Shown: one piece after another, positions 11,354 through 19,373 of the stretch
Position numbering within the stretch: the first letter of the stretch is position 1
Layout of the letters: the number at the start of each line of letters is the position of its first letter
NCBI RefSeq assembly: GCF_002287235.1
Contig: NZ_LMVP01000002.1
Span: 1-51,763 of the forward strand
Direction: 5' to 3'
DNA: 51,763 bases
Source of the DNA: Methanosarcina spelaei
GTDB lineage: Archaea; Halobacteriota; Methanosarcinia; Methanosarcinales; Methanosarcinaceae
Program-made: the position numbers and the translations under genes
Notes under the pieces: model-generated
Seen by the model: the letters and a program-made list of their open reading frames with translations, nothing else
What the model was told of the DNA's origin: nothing
Databases searched by the model: none

Positions 11354-13489
11354 TTAAAATAATTTTGAATACTTTCTTTTCTTTTTATCCATTAATTTCT
11401 CCGCTTCTTTTTTCGGTCTTTTAATTTTTTGAGTTAGCAATTTTGCGACTTCTGGCTTATCTTTCAGGTTATCGAGCTTTTTGATTTCCCATGTTGGGCA
11501 CAGATATCTAGTATAGAGATCCATGATATTTCTATTCAGGCGTATGAATCCTGGCATTCGGTTATCAAGACAGAAAGTTATAGCATGGTCTTTCTCAGAT
11601 CGAACCGATCTTCCAATCGACTGAATCAGCGTTACAGCAGTTTCATAGTAATATCCTTCTGTATCCTTTGCCATCCTCGCCTTTACCCTCTCATCTGACA
11701 TATCAGGGAACGGGATTTTTATCAAAATCTGGAATCTCGACAAATCATCCTTTAGATCCACTCCTTCGGTCATACTTGGAGAAACTAAAACTGATCCCTT
11801 TTTCTCTTTATGTTCTTCGAGTTTTTCTGTTCGGTCCTCCTTTCCGTGAAAAGTGAGTCTCCAATTAGCGTGCTTCGAATATTTCATAAAATATTCAGCA
11901 ATCGGGTAAGAAGTTGCATGAATGATTCCCCTCTCATCTGGGAAAAGGTCAATTATTATATCAATCCTCTCGATAACTCTCCGGTAAAAGTCCTCTAATT
12001 CTTCTTCTGTCTCTGTTGTCTCTGTTGTCTCATTTTTGCACTGCCCAAAATCTGCCCAATTGAGGTTGAAAATTTTATGGTTTTCTACCGGAAAATTAGG
12101 TTCTATTTCTATATACTCAGTAACGTTAGGATTAGGATCAAGCCCTAACCGGGTACAGAATCGTACAGGATCAAGAATAGTAGCTGACTGTAAAATATTA
12201 ACTATTCCCAGACGGAAGTACAGACCTTTAGCGTACTGGGATATCTCAATTGGCTGGAACTCAATGCGTTTTATTCCAAATAACTTATCCTCTTCTACCT
12301 TGACCACCCAGTTTTCAAGATGAACTGCAATATCCTTCAGGTAAAAATTTATCTGCCTTTTCATTAGCTTATCAATCTTGTTCTGAATATCAAAGAGATC
12401 TTCAAGTCTCATCTCTTTTGCCTCTAACCTCTCTGCTAGGTCACGTTTTTCTTCTTCCGGCCATTTTTCCTTCTTTTTTACGCATTCAGCTAACTTTGTT
12501 TGAAGTTCCTCTCTTTCATCCATTGCTTTCATTGCTTCGGCTTTAATCCTGTCCTGAACAACTGGAATTTTATTGCTTAAATCCGTGACCCATGCAGCAT
12601 AAAGTCGCATCTTAGTGAAATTTGGCATATCCTTGTCTGTCTTGACGAATCGGACTTTCTGATCAGCGTCAAGAAATTTATTGATAACATCGAGATGGTC
12701 TAACGTGATTGGAATTTTGATAAAATCAATAATTTTCGACTCTATATTATGTGCTTCATCACCAATTAGCACAAGTCGAGTAGTAAATTCACGGGCATGA
12801 TTCGCCTCTGCCAAAATATAGGAGTAATTATGCACCACAGCGAAGTTATTCAGGGCAGTAGCTTTCGATTCCCAGTATGGACATACTCTAGTTTTTTTGG
12901 GATCAATTTGCCAATACTTTTGTTTGTGATCTTTTACTGAGAAATACGCCTTCCAAGGAGTTTTTTTAAATGTTGGTTTTAGCGGGCAGGATTCCTTGAG
13001 TACTTGACAAGCTCCATGTTCACAGTTATAGGGTTTTTTGGTTTTTGGGTTGATTCCTCGTCTAAGGCATGTAAAATTTGCTCGTCCATATGCTCTTACA
13101 AGATCGGAATAATCACCAAGAATCTGCTCCTGCAAAGCCTTTGTGGAACTGCACACATATCCATACTCGGAAAATACTAGAACTGTATAACTTATAGCAC
13201 TCTTCCCAACTCCGGTTGGAGCCTGAATAAGAATTGTCATCTTACCGTTATAGAGTGCTTTTATTGTCCTCTTCAATATCTCTAGTTGTGCACATCGTAT
13301 ATTGTATTTGAGGGAAGGGAAACATTCGATGATATGGGCATACTCTTTGCTATTCCATTGCTTCAGCAGTTTCTCAGGAGTCTCGATCGACTCCCGACTA
13401 GCAACTTCCTCCTCATCCACGCCTTCGTCATCTGAATAATAGTAATTATCTTCGTCATCCGATGGATACAAAAAATCGTCATCGTCCAT
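11354..13489 (-). CDS. DinG/XPD-family superfamily 2 DNA helicase with probable FeS domain
   Basis: This is a 711-residue ATP-dependent helicase of the Rad3/XPD/DinG group, which unwinds DNA 5'-3' in repair. Walker A is APTGVGKS (residues 90-97), the Walker B box is DEAH (244-247), and motif VI is QSIGRSVRSEKD. Between motifs I and II lie Cys141, Cys156, Cys161, Cys168 and Cys203, in the position of the XPD/DinG 4Fe-4S domain, although the spacing is unlike textbook XPD and there is one cysteine more than four. The first 30 residues are extremely acidic. A coiled, Lys/Glu-rich segment occupies about 330-390 and a basic tail ends the protein. A TATA-like gagatatatactt lies about 65 bp upstream. 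It is probably an accessory gene rather than the core archaeal XPD. Confidence 0.85.
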   Translation of the reverse strand: MDDDDFLYPSDDEDNYYYSDDEGVDEEEVASRESIETPEKLLKQWNSKEYAHIIECFPSLKYNIRCAQLEILKRTIKALYNGKMTILIQAPTGVGKSAISYTVLVFSEYGYVCSSTKALQEQILGDYSDLVRAYGRANFTCLRRGINPKTKKPYNCEHGACQVLKESCPLKPTFKKTPWKAYFSVKDHKQKYWQIDPKKTRVCPYWESKATALNNFAVVHNYSYILAEANHAREFTTRLVLIGDEAHNIESKIIDFIKIPITLDHLDVINKFLDADQKVRFVKTDKDMPNFTKMRLYAAWVTDLSNKIPVVQDRIKAEAMKAMDEREELQTKLAECVKKKEKWPEEEKRDLAERLEAKEMRLEDLFDIQNKIDKLMKRQINFYLKDIAVHLENWVVKVEEDKLFGIKRIEFQPIEISQYAKGLYFRLGIVNILQSATILDPVRFCTRLGLDPNPNVTEYIEIEPNFPVENHKIFNLNWADFGQCKNETTETTETEEELEDFYRRVIERIDIIIDLFPDERGIIHATSYPIAEYFMKYSKHANWRLTFHGKEDRTEKLEEHKEKKGSVLVSPSMTEGVDLKDDLSRFQILIKIPFPDMSDERVKARMAKDTEGYYYETAVTLIQSIGRSVRSEKDHAITFCLDNRMPGFIRLNRNIMDLYTRYLCPTWEIKKLDNLKDKPEVAKLLTQKIKRPKKEAEKLMDKKKRKYSKLF

Positions 13490-13950
13490 TTTAATACGCC
13501 ACCTTAACTTTTCCCCTGATTAACCAGCCCAATCCTGTCCCCACTTGGAAAGTATATATCTCCCATGACCTTTTAGCCTCTAAAGTGTCTACTCAAACTT
13601 CCAGATAGGGACTTTTGTTCGTTCCTGAAGATTCGGAATTGTAAGAAGGATACCAGTTTCTTTCATTTACTTGAAGTTCGAATAAGATCTGCTAGTCATC
13701 GTCTGGTTTTCGATAAGAGTCTTCTTTAACTCTCTTTGATCCCATTATTGTCCGTCTTGTCTGCCTCATCAACATACTCTCTCAATCTTTCTTTTTTACT
13801 TTTCTGTTTTGAAGTGGGTTTGAGGCTGTCTGTGAGCCTCCTGGAGATACTGGCTATTGATAAACATATACTCCTGTGCAAACAGCTTTGAGAAAAATAT
13901 AAAATCTTTTGCAGCAAAAAAGATAATTACAACTACTGCTGCAGGATATT
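13490..13950. other. Intergenic region between helicase and paralogue cluster
   Basis: Holds the minus-strand helicase promoter (TATA-like sequence near 13548-13556) and a plus-strand TATA box (aaaatataaaatc, about 13892-13904) for the next gene. A 63-codon minus-strand ORF at 13726-13917 ends in a plausible hydrophilic segment (KQKSKKERLREYVDEADKTD) and could be the tail of a decayed gene, but its first half looks random. Confidence 0.4.
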
Positions 13951-14361
13951 ATGACCACGATAAATGAAGCTTTTCGGATGTTCTTGAATGAACAGGAAGC
14001 CAGCTTGAAACCGGATGCTTTCCTGGATCTTGAAGATGTGATCCTTCTTTATGAGGAATTCCTTGAATTCAGCGCAGAAGATTCTTTTTCTGAAGAAGAT
14101 AGGGAACTTTATAATGCCCGGCACGAACACGAGAACAAGAGATACTGCGATATTTTCGGCCCTGAGCATCTCATTCCGTCAGGAATTAAGGAATTCCTCG
14201 ATGATTATGTAGTTGAGGTAGGAGGAGGCAAAAAATTCACGGGTACAGCTGCAAAAGTCCTTGAAAAATTCTTTGAATGGGCTCAGGAAAAGGGTTACAT
14301 TGACGAGAAAGCTTTTGAAGTAAACAGCGAGGTTCTCAGGAAGTATAAAAAAAGGTACTGA
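13951..14361 (+). CDS. Hypothetical protein, recombinase core-binding (SAM-like) domain, paralogue 1
   Basis: A 136-residue acidic, helical protein. Residues 1-35 (MTTINEAFRMFLNEQEASLK) resemble the start of phage-integrase SAM-like N-terminal domains, and the end (AKVLEKFFEWAQEKGYID) resembles the closing helices of that domain. No tyrosine-recombinase catalytic domain (R...HxxR...Y) follows. It is clearly homologous to the next gene over its whole length but stops where that protein has an extra C-terminal domain of about 90 residues. A TATA box lies about 50 bp upstream and a GGAT-type ribosome-binding site just before the ATG. Function unknown; DNA binding is inferred from the fold resemblance only. 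Confidence 0.72.
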   Translation: MTTINEAFRMFLNEQEASLKPDAFLDLEDVILLYEEFLEFSAEDSFSEEDRELYNARHEHENKRYCDIFGPEHLIPSGIKEFLDDYVVEVGGGKKFTGTAAKVLEKFFEWAQEKGYIDEKAFEVNSEVLRKYKKRY

Positions 14362-14701
14362 TGCCGCATTATCAATAAAAATGTCGTGTAAAATCAGTTG
14401 CAATTATTCAGACTCATTGAATCTTTGAGGATTGAGAGATACCAGAAAATGTTTTGAAGAGAGATATGTATTAGAAGAACCTTTTTCTGGAATAGAGGCC
14501 TGAGAAGCTTGTTTTCAGGCAATCCTTTTCCTTTTTTTGCTTATTCTGTTAATCCCGTTAGTTCTGCTGATTTCATTTATTTTGTTTATTTATCAAACCT
14601 TTAGAGGTTCTTTCTTCTGTGAAAGTGGTGTAGGCCGGAAACTCTCAAAAGCAGGGCAAAATCTTGAAAAATTGGAAAAACAATCATCTTTTAGAACTAC
14701 C

Positions 14702-15415
14702 ATGAAGACGATAGATGAAGCTTTTCTGGAATTTTTAGAAGAGCAAAAAAGAGAGCTGAGTCCCAGGACTTATCAGGAATATGAAAATTTAATCTCTCTT
14801 TTTGAGGAGTATCTTGACGTTTGTGCTTTTGATGACCTTTATGAAGAGGATCAGGAGCTCTATAAAGAGAAGCAGAAAAACGAGCATAAAGAATACTGCC
14901 AGGTTTTTGACCTTGCGTATATTGCGCCTTTATATATTGAATATTTCCTTGAGGATTATCTGATTAATGATTTTGGAGGGAGTGCAGCTTTCGTTGAAAC
15001 TTCGCGGCGTTTTTTCCGCAAATTCCTGTCCTGGGCTTATGAAAAAGAGTACCTTGATCCAGAGCATTATAGTGAATTTGCTGAGATTGTCGGGAATATA
15101 AGAAAAAAGGGGAAAAAGACTGCTTCTCAGGTTCAGAAATTTGGCAGTTTGCTCTGCGATTATGTAGATGCACATCAGGCTGAAGAGAGTTCAGAGTGGA
15201 AAGGGGGAGATTTTGAGATAAAGAGGGTCGAACCCGGAAAGTTATGGGTAGAGGATTATCTGGATCCTTACAGAGAAATCGGGCCTGTTAAGGTTTCGGA
15301 AGAGGTGAGTTCGCTGGCAAAGGTAGGCTGGTACCTTAATTTCGGAATAGTAAAAGTCGGGGACTTCTGGCAGATAGTATATGTAGAGGGAGTTTCTTCC
15401 CGCTGTCCTTATTGA
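14702..15415 (+). CDS. Hypothetical protein, recombinase core-binding-like domain plus C-terminal domain, paralogue 2
   Basis: This 237-residue protein is homologous to its neighbour upstream: MKTIDEAFLEFLEEQKRELS, then PRTYQEYENLISLFEEYLD, then ETSRRFFRKFLSWAYEKEYLD at the end of the helical domain (about residue 120). A C-terminal beta-rich part (about 140-237) contains the segment VEPGKLWVEDYL and ends CPY. An in-frame TTG at 14537 would add 55 residues beginning with a hydrophobic stretch, but the conserved start is the ATG at 14702. No catalytic recombinase residues are present. The gap of 340 bp from paralogue 1 contains no recognisable remnant of the missing domain. Confidence 0.75.
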   Translation: MKTIDEAFLEFLEEQKRELSPRTYQEYENLISLFEEYLDVCAFDDLYEEDQELYKEKQKNEHKEYCQVFDLAYIAPLYIEYFLEDYLINDFGGSAAFVETSRRFFRKFLSWAYEKEYLDPEHYSEFAEIVGNIRKKGKKTASQVQKFGSLLCDYVDAHQAEESSEWKGGDFEIKRVEPGKLWVEDYLDPYREIGPVKVSEEVSSLAKVGWYLNFGIVKVGDFWQIVYVEGVSSRCPY

Positions 15416-15505
15416 AAATCTCAGCACTTTCCGGAATTATTGAATATTTCCGGGGATTTTTTAACGAAATCGAATATCAAAGAAAAGAGCTGTAAGGTCG
15501 ATAAA

Positions 15506-15790
15506 ATGAAAACAACAGTCAATAGATCAATTCGTGGAATTCTGAAGGAGTTCCTGTCTGAACAGCAAGCCCGCCTGAGTTCTAAAACCTATTCGGGGTA
15601 TGAAGAAGCGATTTATTATTTTGAAGAATATCTCAACGGTTGGGCTCATCCTGTTAAAGATTATTCTGAAATTCTGAATAATTTCTTTATTATTACCGGG
15701 ATTAAACCCGGAAAACTCTGTTTGAGAGTTTTTCGGGCGGAAGACACATCGGACCTGGGCCTGTTCTATGCTTTCTATGGAATTCGATGA
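15506..15790 (+). CDS. Hypothetical protein, internally deleted paralogue 3
   Basis: A 94-residue third member of the cluster. Its first 45 residues (GILKEFLSEQQARLS, then a SKTYSGYEEAIYYFEEYL segment) match the N-terminal helices of paralogues 1 and 2. The next part (FIITGIKPGKLCLRVF) matches the C-terminal FEIKRVEPGKLWVEDYL segment of paralogue 2. The central region, including the second half of the helical domain, is absent. The start at 15506 has an AAGGT ribosome-binding site. It may be a decayed copy that stayed in frame, or a compact functional variant. Confidence 0.6.
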   Translation: MKTTVNRSIRGILKEFLSEQQARLSSKTYSGYEEAIYYFEEYLNGWAHPVKDYSEILNNFFIITGIKPGKLCLRVFRAEDTSDLGLFYAFYGIR

Positions 15791-15859
15791 GAACTGAATT
15801 TTCTTTTGGGTTTTGAAAAACTGTAAAGTATATCTATAATTATATCTAGAAGATAAACT

Positions 15860-16378
15860 ATGAGCGACCGCGAACTTGTGCAACAAAAGAAAGACACTCT
15901 TATCCAGATGACAGACGGATTTGCAGATAGCTACCTTGATGAAGACTATAAAATGCTGTGTCAAAAACTAATCAATAAAATGAGCCGGAAAAGGCAGGTA
16001 CCTTTTCTTTCAGGAAGGTTAGAAATTTGGGCTGCTGCAGTGGTTTATGCGCTTGGGCAGATCAACTTTCTTTTTGATAGAAGTTTCGAGCCCTACGTAA
16101 GTGCTACTGATCTCTGTGATTATTTTGGGGCAAGCCAGAGCACAGTCTCCCAGAAAGCAAAGAAAATACGCGATATGTTCAAAATGAGATATTTTAATGA
16201 GGAGTTCTCCACAGAAAGGGTGCAAAAGGATAATCCTTTTAATGAGCTCGTAATGATCAATGGGTTAATTGTCCCTGTTTCTGCTGTTTTGAAAGTCTTA
16301 GAGAAAAAAGAATCTAAGTTGCAGACAGAACTTGAATTGGAAGATGAAGATGAAGATCTTGAAACTGAAGAAAAATGA
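15860..16378 (+). CDS. DUF6398-like helix-turn-helix domain protein
   Basis: 172 residues. The central segment (RLEIWAAAVVYALGQINFLFD, about residues 53-73), followed by a YVSATDLCDYFGASQSTVSQKAKKIRDMF segment with a helix-turn-helix look, resembles the family I know as DUF6398, found in bacteria and archaea. Its helices suggest DNA binding. The C-terminus is a highly acidic tail (ELEDEDEDLETEEK). It starts 69 bp after paralogue 3 and has its own TATA-like region (tatctataattatatc) directly upstream. The four genes 13951-16378 lie on one strand. Regulation of the paralogue cluster is possible but not shown. Confidence 0.7.
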   Translation: MSDRELVQQKKDTLIQMTDGFADSYLDEDYKMLCQKLINKMSRKRQVPFLSGRLEIWAAAVVYALGQINFLFDRSFEPYVSATDLCDYFGASQSTVSQKAKKIRDMFKMRYFNEEFSTERVQKDNPFNELVMINGLIVPVSAVLKVLEKKESKLQTELELEDEDEDLETEEK

Positions 16379-16549: not shown

Positions 16550-16774
16550 ATGGCTGAGACAACAACCATTCAAGTGAAACAGAGCACTAAAGAAGCTCTT
16601 GAAAAAATGAAGATCTATAAGCGGGAAACTTACAACGAGGTACTTGAGCGGTTACTGGAAGAAGTCCAGGAACTAAATGAGGAAACGAAAAAAGAAATCG
16701 AACTTGCCCGAAAAGCTGTTAAGGAAGGCAGGTACATAACACATGAAGATTTAAAAAAAGAGATAGGTTTCTAA
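16550..16774 (+). CDS. Antitoxin of a RelE-type toxin-antitoxin pair (ribbon-helix-helix-like)
   Basis: 74 residues. The N-terminus TTTIQVKQSTKEALEKMKIY is a ribbon-helix-helix-like strand and helix for DNA binding. The segment YNEVLERLLEEV and the following charged helix, ending THEDLKKEIGF, form the toxin-wrapping tail typical of archaeal antitoxins placed before RelE genes. It begins 27 bp past a perfect palindrome and ends 27 bp before the toxin start, consistent with a two-gene operon. It should neutralise the toxin and repress the promoter. Confidence 0.85.
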   Translation: MAETTTIQVKQSTKEALEKMKIYKRETYNEVLERLLEEVQELNEETKKEIELARKAVKEGRYITHEDLKKEIGF

Positions 16775-16801: not shown

Positions 16802-17053
16802 ATGCACTACCAAATCATCTGGTCTGAACCTGCGGTCAATCAGCTCAGAAAACTCGATCATCAGCTGGCAAAACGCATTTTTCATAAGGTCTCTGAGCTG
16901 AAAGAGGATCCGTTTCGCTATGTAACAAAATTAGTCGGGTCTCCAAATTACCGTTTGAGGGTCGGTGATTATAGAGTAATCCTGGAGATTCAGGGCAGCT
17001 GCTTGAAAATACTCGTGCTTAAAATTGGGCACCGACGGGATATCTATAAATAA
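16802..17053 (+). CDS. relE: RelE/ParE-family toxin
   Basis: 83 residues with the RelE fold pattern: YQIIWSEPAVNQLRKLD, helical LAKRIFHKVSELKEDPF, then YRLRVGDYRVILEI, KILVLKIGHRRDIYK at the C-terminus. RelE proteins cleave mRNA on the ribosome; the conserved basic residues (Arg in YRLRVGDYR, HRRDIYK) fit this group. ATG 16802 is preferred over the overlapping TTG at 16799. It is the second gene of the toxin-antitoxin operon, directly after the antitoxin. Confidence 0.88.
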   Translation: MHYQIIWSEPAVNQLRKLDHQLAKRIFHKVSELKEDPFRYVTKLVGSPNYRLRVGDYRVILEIQGSCLKILVLKIGHRRDIYK

Positions 17054-17167
17054 AATCGGCTTTTCTCCTTTACTTTTACTTCTTTACTTTGAATTCTTTA
17101 TTTTAAACTTTTTAACTCAAATCAATTCCAATACTTATAATACTTGATACTGTCTTACATAACAGGC

Positions 17168-18214
17168 ATGCAGGACATTACTTTTATTGATGGAGGCAGC
17201 CTTCCTATGCCTGAAGGTATTACAAGGGAATGGGTAGAAACTGCGGCTGAAAACCGGGATGAAGACGAGAAACTTTTTTCTATGGTAAGGAATGCTTTCC
17301 AGAGGAAAATCGATGTGGGAGTACATGTACCCACTTATCCTCAGTTCAGGGATATGATAGGACAATTTCTGGACATTATTAAAGATGAAAAGAACTGTTA
17401 TGAGCCTTATGTACTGAAAGAGGAAAATGCAAAGATCCTTGAGCTGGAGATAATTGACGAGGTTGCAAAACAGTACAGGGAAGAGACAGGAAAAACGCTT
17501 GAAGTCAGGGTTTGTATTGCAGGCCCAATAGACCTCTACCTCCAGGCCTTCGGGGCAACGGGTTATGTGGACGCTTATCATATCCTTGCACTGGATATTG
17601 AAGATTTTATAAAACAGGCATTTGTAGCTGCGAAAAATTTCAAAATAAAGGTCATAGCTCTGGATGAGCCAAGCCTCGGGATAAATGACAGAATCCAGTT
17701 TTCTGACGCCAATATAATCTCTGCTCTCACAGTCGCTTCTACCTACGCCCGTAAACAGGGAGCTGATGTGGAAATTCATCTGCATTCACCGTTAAAATAC
17801 AAACTTGTCTGCGAGACCCCAATTAATGTCATCGGTTTTGAGTATGCGGCAACTCCTTCTTACCTTAACCTTCTGGATAAAAAAGTGCTTGAAGATTCAA
17901 ATACTTATGTCAGGCTCGGAGTTTCGAGAACCGATATTTCCAGTCTTGTAGGTATTATCAACGAAAATTATGGGGTCAATGTCTGGAAGGAAAAGGAGTA
18001 CATGCAAAAAATCGTTACTGACCTGGAAACTCCCGATGTAGTTAAAAAGAGGCTTGAAACAGCTTATTCTATCCTTGGAGACCGGATAAAGTATGCAAGT
18101 CCGGACTGTGGGCTGGCTTTCTGGCCGGATCAGGAACTTGCCTTCAAACTTCTTGAGAATACCGCAAAAGGCATTAACAAGTTTAATGCAGAGAAGGAAA
18201 AACGAGAAGAGTAA
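17168..18214 (+). CDS. MetE-like (cobalamin-independent methionine synthase C-terminal) methyltransferase, paralogue A
   Basis: This 348-residue protein resembles the catalytic (beta/alpha)8 half of MetE, without the N-terminal half. Candidate zinc ligands are the HLH of EIHLHSP (about 207-209, where MetE has H-x-C), a glutamate in VIGFEYAA (MetE Glu665 position) and the cysteine of SPDCGL (MetE Cys726 position). Such core-MetE proteins in methanogens move methyl groups from a corrinoid protein or other donor to homocysteine or another thiol; the substrate here is not known. ATG 17168 is chosen over TTG 17144 because homology with the next gene begins there. A TATA box (acttataatac) lies just upstream, so the leader is short. 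It is followed by a paralogue. Confidence 0.82.
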   Translation: MQDITFIDGGSLPMPEGITREWVETAAENRDEDEKLFSMVRNAFQRKIDVGVHVPTYPQFRDMIGQFLDIIKDEKNCYEPYVLKEENAKILELEIIDEVAKQYREETGKTLEVRVCIAGPIDLYLQAFGATGYVDAYHILALDIEDFIKQAFVAAKNFKIKVIALDEPSLGINDRIQFSDANIISALTVASTYARKQGADVEIHLHSPLKYKLVCETPINVIGFEYAATPSYLNLLDKKVLEDSNTYVRLGVSRTDISSLVGIINENYGVNVWKEKEYMQKIVTDLETPDVVKKRLETAYSILGDRIKYASPDCGLAFWPDQELAFKLLENTAKGINKFNAEKEKREE

Positions 18215-18338
18215 ACCCTTCTAATTTTCAAGTGATCGAATAACCGGACGAAATTTAAATTTTCCCAAAAGGTCTCTTTTTTTATATTTATTCTGTCTTT
18301 CCAATAACGCTAAATCCTTACAGGTCTACTAAGAGGAT

Positions 18339-19373
18339 ATGGAAGAAATCATCTTTGACGATATTGGGAGTTATCCCCTTCCTGAAGGAATCAGTAAGGA
18401 ATGGGTCCAAAATGCCTTTAAAACGAGAACCGAAGATGAGAAACTCTTTACGGTAATCAATGACGCCTTTCAGCAAAAAGTAGATGCAGGTGTTGATATT
18501 CCTACCTATCCTCAGTATCAGGATATGAATGAGCAGTTCCTGAGGGTTATTCGAGACTCTAGTTGCTGTGACAGCCCATTTGAGGTAAAACTTGAGTGCT
18601 CCAGGATTGAGGAGCTTGAGGCTATAGAGAAGGTTGCAAAAGCCTATAAGGAAAGAGTCGGAGAGACACTCAAGGTTCGGGTCTGTGTTACAGGTCCAAC
18701 TGAACTTTATCTGAAGGAATTCGGAGGTACACGGTATACGGATATCTATTCTCTTTTTGCAAAAAGCGTGAATAATTTTGTAAGAAATTCCATGAGATCT
18801 GCAAAAAATTTCAAAATTGCAACAGTTTCTATTGATGAACCAAGTATAGGGCTGAACCCTGAGCTTGCTTTTGATGAGAACGATATTATTTCTGCTCTTA
18901 CCAGCGCTTCAAAAGCTGCCAGCAAGTGGGGAGCCGATGTACAGATTCACCTTCATTCTCCTCTCTACTATAACCTTGCCTGTCAAGTCCCCACAATAAA
19001 CGTCATAGGAGTAGAATCCGCAGGCACGCCCTCTTATCTGGAATTGATAGACAAGAAAACTCTGGAGGATACGGACTCTTTCCTGAGGCTTGGGATTGCA
19101 AGAACTGACATCTACACACTGGCAGGAATCATTAGTGAAAAGTACTGTACTAATGTCTGGAAAGATCAACAATATCTTCCAGAAATTGTTAGCGGGCTTG
19201 AGACCCCAGCTACTATAACTAAAAGGCTGAAGGTGTACTACAGGCGTTTTGGCAACCTGATAAAGTATGTAGGTCCTGATTGCGGGCTAGGCTCCTGGCC
19301 TAACCAGAAAATAGCTTTCATCTTGCTTTCCAATGTAGCTCAGGGTATAAAAGATTTCAGGGAATCTCTCTGA
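18339..19373 (+). CDS. MetE-like methyltransferase, paralogue B
   Basis: 344 residues, colinear with the preceding gene throughout (shared features include LPEGI.KEWV, VPTYPQ-like, VRVC..GP, DEPS.G.N, HLHSPL.Y, NVWK, PDCGL..WP). Zinc-ligand positions are again H-L-H, Glu (VIGVESAG) and Cys (GPDCGLGSWP). A ribosome-binding site GAGGAT precedes ATG 18339. The 124-bp gap contains T-rich sequence and a TATA-like tttatatttat, so it may have its own promoter. The pair is an old tandem duplication: the proteins are clearly similar but far from identical, which suggests different substrates or partners. A strong hairpin terminator follows. Confidence 0.82.
   Translation: MEEIIFDDIGSYPLPEGISKEWVQNAFKTRTEDEKLFTVINDAFQQKVDAGVDIPTYPQYQDMNEQFLRVIRDSSCCDSPFEVKLECSRIEELEAIEKVAKAYKERVGETLKVRVCVTGPTELYLKEFGGTRYTDIYSLFAKSVNNFVRNSMRSAKNFKIATVSIDEPSIGLNPELAFDENDIISALTSASKAASKWGADVQIHLHSPLYYNLACQVPTINVIGVESAGTPSYLELIDKKTLEDTDSFLRLGIARTDIYTLAGIISEKYCTNVWKDQQYLPEIVSGLETPATITKRLKVYYRRFGNLIKYVGPDCGLGSWPNQKIAFILLSNVAQGIKDFRESL

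Follow-up and report, generated by a model that had tools for sequence, protein, structure and literature searches.

The closest described relative of the proteins analyzed here is the core-binding (CB) domain of tyrosine recombinases, a SAM-like domain represented in Pfam by Phage_int_SAM_1, Phage_int_SAM_3, Phage_int_SAM_4 and Phage_int_SAM_5. The proteins have in common with it the fold and an LS.RTY..Y signature, and differ from it in that they lack a catalytic domain, that their CB domain is acidic rather than basic, and that the full-length form carries a small barrel at its C-terminus. The MRG domain of MRG15/Eaf3 gives a comparable structural match to one of the proteins (6ine, 8ifg, 8i3f; for this likeness we cite the MRG domain structure paper of Bowman et al.), although it belongs to a eukaryotic chromatin protein and the sequence hints pointing to it are weak. 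OB/cold-shock-like small barrels share the strand order of the C-terminal barrel and its helix between strands 3 and 4, with cold-shock domains matching at probability 0.96, whereas the barrel described here matches no Pfam family and has a motif of its own (EPGKLW..., GPV, GW, W).

The proteins are encoded within a 51,763-nucleotide stretch of the Methanosarcina spelaei genome, the whole of which we call the window. Gene A (positions 13951–14361, + strand, 136 aa), gene B (14702–15415, + strand, 237 aa), and gene C (15506–15790, + strand, 94 aa) follow one another, and an ORF check of the window found them, together with a DUF6398, an antitoxin, and a toxin gene, at the positions given in the original prediction. 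The proposal that A, B, and C are three consecutive same-strand paralogues is borne out by sequence comparison: A and B are 38% identical (E 8e-26), with 132 columns aligned in a profile–profile comparison (E 6e-33), and C matches B over the N-terminus (E 1.3e-4). They had also been described as a size series, which stands for the lengths but not for three separate designs: A is a stable paralogue consisting of the CB-fold domain only, B is the full form, and C is a decayed copy. For the full form, which spans ~230 aa, we coin the family name CB-OB.

The suggested likeness to the N-terminal domain of recombinases has been upheld by both profile and model. B scores above the curated Phage_int_SAM_5 cut-off (E 7.9e-6), and its relatives match Phage_int_SAM_3 in 23 of 37 cases and Phage_int_SAM_5 in 10 of 37 (Pfam, E up to 0.1). 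As modeled by AF2 (pLDDT 92.6, pTM 0.86), A is helical throughout, and Foldseek ranks first among PDB structures the N-domain of an integrase from a Haloarcula phage (3nrw; probability 1.00, TM 0.77 by target). Next come the CB domains of Tn1549 Int and lambda Int, together with Cre and MRG15/Eaf3 structures, though the E-values are weak, none being below 0.001 and all being >0.1 for A against the PDB. A search for solved structures by sequence returned none that was convincing. The models support a CB fold in A and B. In the AF2 model of B (pLDDT 88.4), seven helices precede a five-strand barrel with a helix between strands 3 and 4, which resembles OB, cold-shock, S1, eIF5A, and ligase OB barrels in Foldseek comparisons; against a viral fold library the matches were mostly to the barrel only, as in single-strand-binding and S1-like proteins. 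The extra β-rich domain that had been noted in B is therefore present and can be described more exactly as a predicted OB/cold-shock-like barrel. As also predicted, the catalytic R-H-R-Y domain is missing: Phage_integrase (PF00589) matches none of A, B, and C, and elsewhere in the same genome it matches only on other contigs, C71 and C64. Pfam MRG gives no hit above its curated score for A or B and is matched weakly by four members of the B family (best E 0.0023).

CB-OB proteins extend far beyond this locus. A search of GTDB genomes with the B profile found 41 loci in bacteria and archaea, so that the suspicion of an unnamed family is supported. By the taxon names on the records, many of which are MAGs, the archaeal loci belong to Methanosarcinaceae, Methanosarcinales, Methanothrix, and Freyarchaeota, and the bacterial ones to Planctomycetota, Nitrospirota, Calditrichota, Holophagae, Actinomycetota, Melainabacteria, Armatimonadetes, Halanaerobium, and Clostridia; besides Methanosarcinaceae and Methanothrix, the family is spread over some ten other phyla. 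The two-domain architecture and the barrel are conserved across many of these phyla in the 37-member family alignment. Outside Methanosarcinaceae the neighborhoods that we read hold mostly lone CB-OB genes with no partner in common, and a search of phage, plasmid, and viral contig records found no relatives. On this evidence CB-OB is a chromosomal family, in whose examined members the catalytic domain is never present. Locus-tag and domain-term queries of the literature gave nothing useful, and neither a name nor a paper for the family was found. In one Clostridia MAG with three CB-OB matches, a CB-OB protein is fused to PRiA4_ORF3 (plasmid pRiA4b ORF-3-like; L092:4428–5666), which is a separate domain and is not present at the window locus.

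Within Methanosarcinaceae, full copies fall into groups I (B together with the first copies of a sister genus), II, and III, the order of which is shared by two genera, and A is sister to group I with support 100/99, in a tree some of whose deeper forks are weak and which carries a warning of long branches meeting. The tree and gene order indicate that I-II-III is an old ordered paralogue set that has decayed repeatedly, and many of the other copies in Methanosarcina are broken. Compared with an intact copy in genome G013, C has lost 329 bp internally, between CTCA repeats; in the window, one further base that both G002 and G013 keep is missing from it, with a 1-base frameshift as the result. 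C is, by this alignment, a pseudogene remnant, and the deletion and frameshift led us to reject it as a third functional design. The presence of the barrel in the remaining family members suggests that A lost a barrel, rather than that B gained one. OB remnants found 3′ of A in G004 and G006 were considered as A's own lost barrel and rejected; we read them as remnants of other copies.

Gene A itself is close to genus-wide. Of 31 Methanosarcina genomes, 24 have a single-copy orthologue, in every case 3′ of argS (identity confirmed by Pfam) and on the same strand. Its dN/dS is 0.035–0.10 in comparisons with the window copy and up to 0.20 between other A pairs, and for B the values are 0.13–0.27; on these ratios A is under strong purifying selection. 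Residues K94 and K95 are invariant in the orthologue alignment. The leader (13890–13950, + strand) contains a BRE/TATA-like element, GAGAAAAATATAAAATC, that aligns in 23 of the 24 orthologous leaders, and an imperfect inverted repeat, TTTTGCAGCA...TGCTGCAGGA, precedes the ATG. The repeat, at best a putative operator, is broken in more distant orthologues. An RNA hairpin at this position, plausible in the one window sequence (z −2.57), was rejected: covariation was not above that of shuffles, no consensus fold emerged, and no Rfam family matched in the region.

The genes that follow the paralogues were correctly recognized from the outset, as a DUF6398 protein (15860–16378, + strand, 172 aa; PF19935, E 1.6e-42) next to the paralogues and, 3′ of it, a RelE toxin–antitoxin pair, comprising an antitoxin-like protein (16550–16774, + strand, 74 aa; DUF7557, E 1.8e-6) and a RelE/ParE-type toxin (16802–17053, + strand, 83 aa; ParE_toxin, E 1.1e-11). 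The idea that the paralogues and DUF6398 form a linked four-gene module did not hold. DUF6398 occurs in nine of the 31 Methanosarcina genomes (in G003 only as fragments), and six of these have it at this locus or close by; across the phylum it is found in 37 of 393 genomes, mostly without CB-OB. Among 19 CB-OB genomes reached from other loci it occurs in 2, both times on other contigs. From these counts DUF6398 is an occasional, facultative resident here, independent of CB-OB elsewhere and no obligate partner. The RelE pair is, by its distribution, a steadier neighbor of the paralogue set than DUF6398: arrays of the sister genus (L059 and L060) have it in the same position, the antitoxin having an 89% identical counterpart in L059, and close (>70%) homologues of the toxin were found only at this locus among the relatives searched. 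The pair is absent from the locus in G019, G028, and G013, and the G014 copy is broken.

Helical proteins associated with DUF6398, one of them with SEC-C, were rejected as CB relatives at profile comparison probabilities of 10% and 5%, and no paper naming DUF6398 was found in our literature search. In L122:754–2647 a PRiA4_ORF3 gene lies directly 5′ of a DUF6398 gene and a SEC-C protein comes next, so these domains may be associated. In L120:772–1851 and L135:346–1887 DUF6398 is fused either to tetratricopeptide-like repeats or to an extended helical region at the N-terminus that has no Pfam match. In the window, 3′ of the RelE pair, two paralogous genes for proteins of ~350 aa (17144–19373) appear MetE-like by eye and match no Pfam family at E up to 1e-5. 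A DinG-like helicase gene (11354–13489, − strand; best PADLOC match typeIV_DinG, E 3.7e-66) stands between argS and A in the window genome only, with a 48% relative elsewhere in G008. Other genomes carry asparagine-synthase-like genes as cargo at the locus, and type I restriction genes occur there in two lineages, G028 and L059; with the restriction insertions L038:1573–7726 and L059:3–3943, the argS locus looks like an insertion hotspot.

These CB domains differ from those of integrases in charge. Each of the 21 aligned orthologues of A has a net charge between −11 and −16, and A averages −14.2 per 100 residues (range −16 to −12). Most CB domains in the family are acidic as well (mean −4.9 per 100 residues). 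Integrase CB domains from the same order average +3.0 per 100 residues (range −2.7 to +13.1) and do not overlap with A, in a comparison whose rows are related rather than independent cases, so that test values overstate significance. This control consists of integrase CB domains of relatives found with PF13495. It is limited to the 16 matches with an open reading frame through the matched region on the + strand of the locus, five matches on the opposite strand being left out, and its regions span only 55–84 aa, against ~125 aa for A and the family. By charge count the barrel is not basic either. The strong acidity of the A and B CB domains makes plain DNA grasping, as originally envisaged, unlikely, and leaves that part of the proposal doubtful and unsupported. 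Net charge is not surface charge, and some basic positions are conserved in the family, such as 107 and 134; the net acidity argues against plain DNA clamping, but a local basic DNA-binding face would be compatible with it.

We consider it most probable, at roughly 0.4, that CB-OB proteins are recombinase-derived, non-catalytic adaptors or regulators whose CB fold binds a partner other than plain duplex DNA. The structural matches of A to 3nrw, Tn1549, lambda Int, and MRG, the MRG hints in the family, the barrel matches, the charge, the constraint, the spread, the non-mobility, and the ordered groups are all consistent with such a role. The invariant K94 and K95 and the basic positions of the family count against it, so a local DNA-binding face is possible. 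The same residues, with the CB fold itself and the inverted repeat conserved in the A leader, favor the main rival, in which CB-OB proteins are DNA-binding regulators whose CB domain clamps DNA and whose barrel adds contacts, for example in the transcriptional control of nearby genes or of their own. We regard this as unlikely, given that the CB domains are strongly acidic where those of same-order integrases are mostly basic, that the barrel is not basic, and that the leader repeat is broken in the more distant A orthologues. Extreme negative charge on a CB fold might instead point to a DNA mimic or dominant-negative partner that competes with or caps real tyrosine recombinases; A is fixed beside argS, not beside recombinases, and such a function seems very unlikely.

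The remaining alternatives concern the locus more than the fold. As a defense or counter-defense locus in a variable region, the paralogues, DUF6398, and the RelE pair would form an anti-virus or plasmid-control module, a role that the earlier proposal had also raised. PADLOC matches none of A, B, C, and DUF6398; A, unlike typical defense genes, is conserved and occurs in nearly the whole genus; and in other phyla most relatives stand alone. The uptake of type I restriction systems in two lineages and the DinG-like helicase in the window could be cited in its favor, as could the restriction of close RelE homologues to this locus and the repeated decay of copies, but the restriction genes may be no more than the usual cargo of such an insertion site, and we consider this explanation improbable. 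That the genes are functionless, decaying integrase leftovers that lost their catalytic domain is hardly credible as a general account: C and several other copies are indeed broken, and for C the description remains true, yet it is contradicted for A and B, in which dN/dS is low, and a two-domain architecture with a conserved barrel over many phyla is unlike independent integrase decay.

In Methanosarcinaceae, an old ordered set of paralogues I, II, and III, often followed by the RelE pair, lies 3′ of argS. A group I relative without a barrel gave rise to gene A, which has its own promoter and is maintained by strong selection; the other paralogues come and go, C being a relic. Under the favored adaptor or regulator model, the CB fold would have been recruited to bind a partner, which is most likely a protein, much as the MRG domain of MRG15/Eaf3 does, and the barrel would provide a second binding surface, the proteins acting as adaptors or regulators. 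The similarity to MRG may be one of shared fold only. A more far-reaching version, to which we assign a low probability, sees in CB-OB proteins a new class of regulators that derive from recombinases and are present in both bacteria and archaea. Their integrase clamp would have turned into an acidic domain that binds proteins (or mimics DNA), the prokaryotic equivalent of MRG, and in Methanosarcinaceae they would act jointly with a RelE pair.

The most valuable result of this analysis is the widespread CB-OB family together with its conserved CB-only paralogue, gene A. Half a recombinase joined to a barrel of its own over many phyla, for which we found neither name nor literature, is open ground, and the genus-wide, strongly conserved gene A makes the question of function testable in genetically tractable Methanosarcina. 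If it is true that the CB fold became a protein-binding module in prokaryotes, the MRG domain in the chromatin proteins of eukaryotes would be a parallel case.
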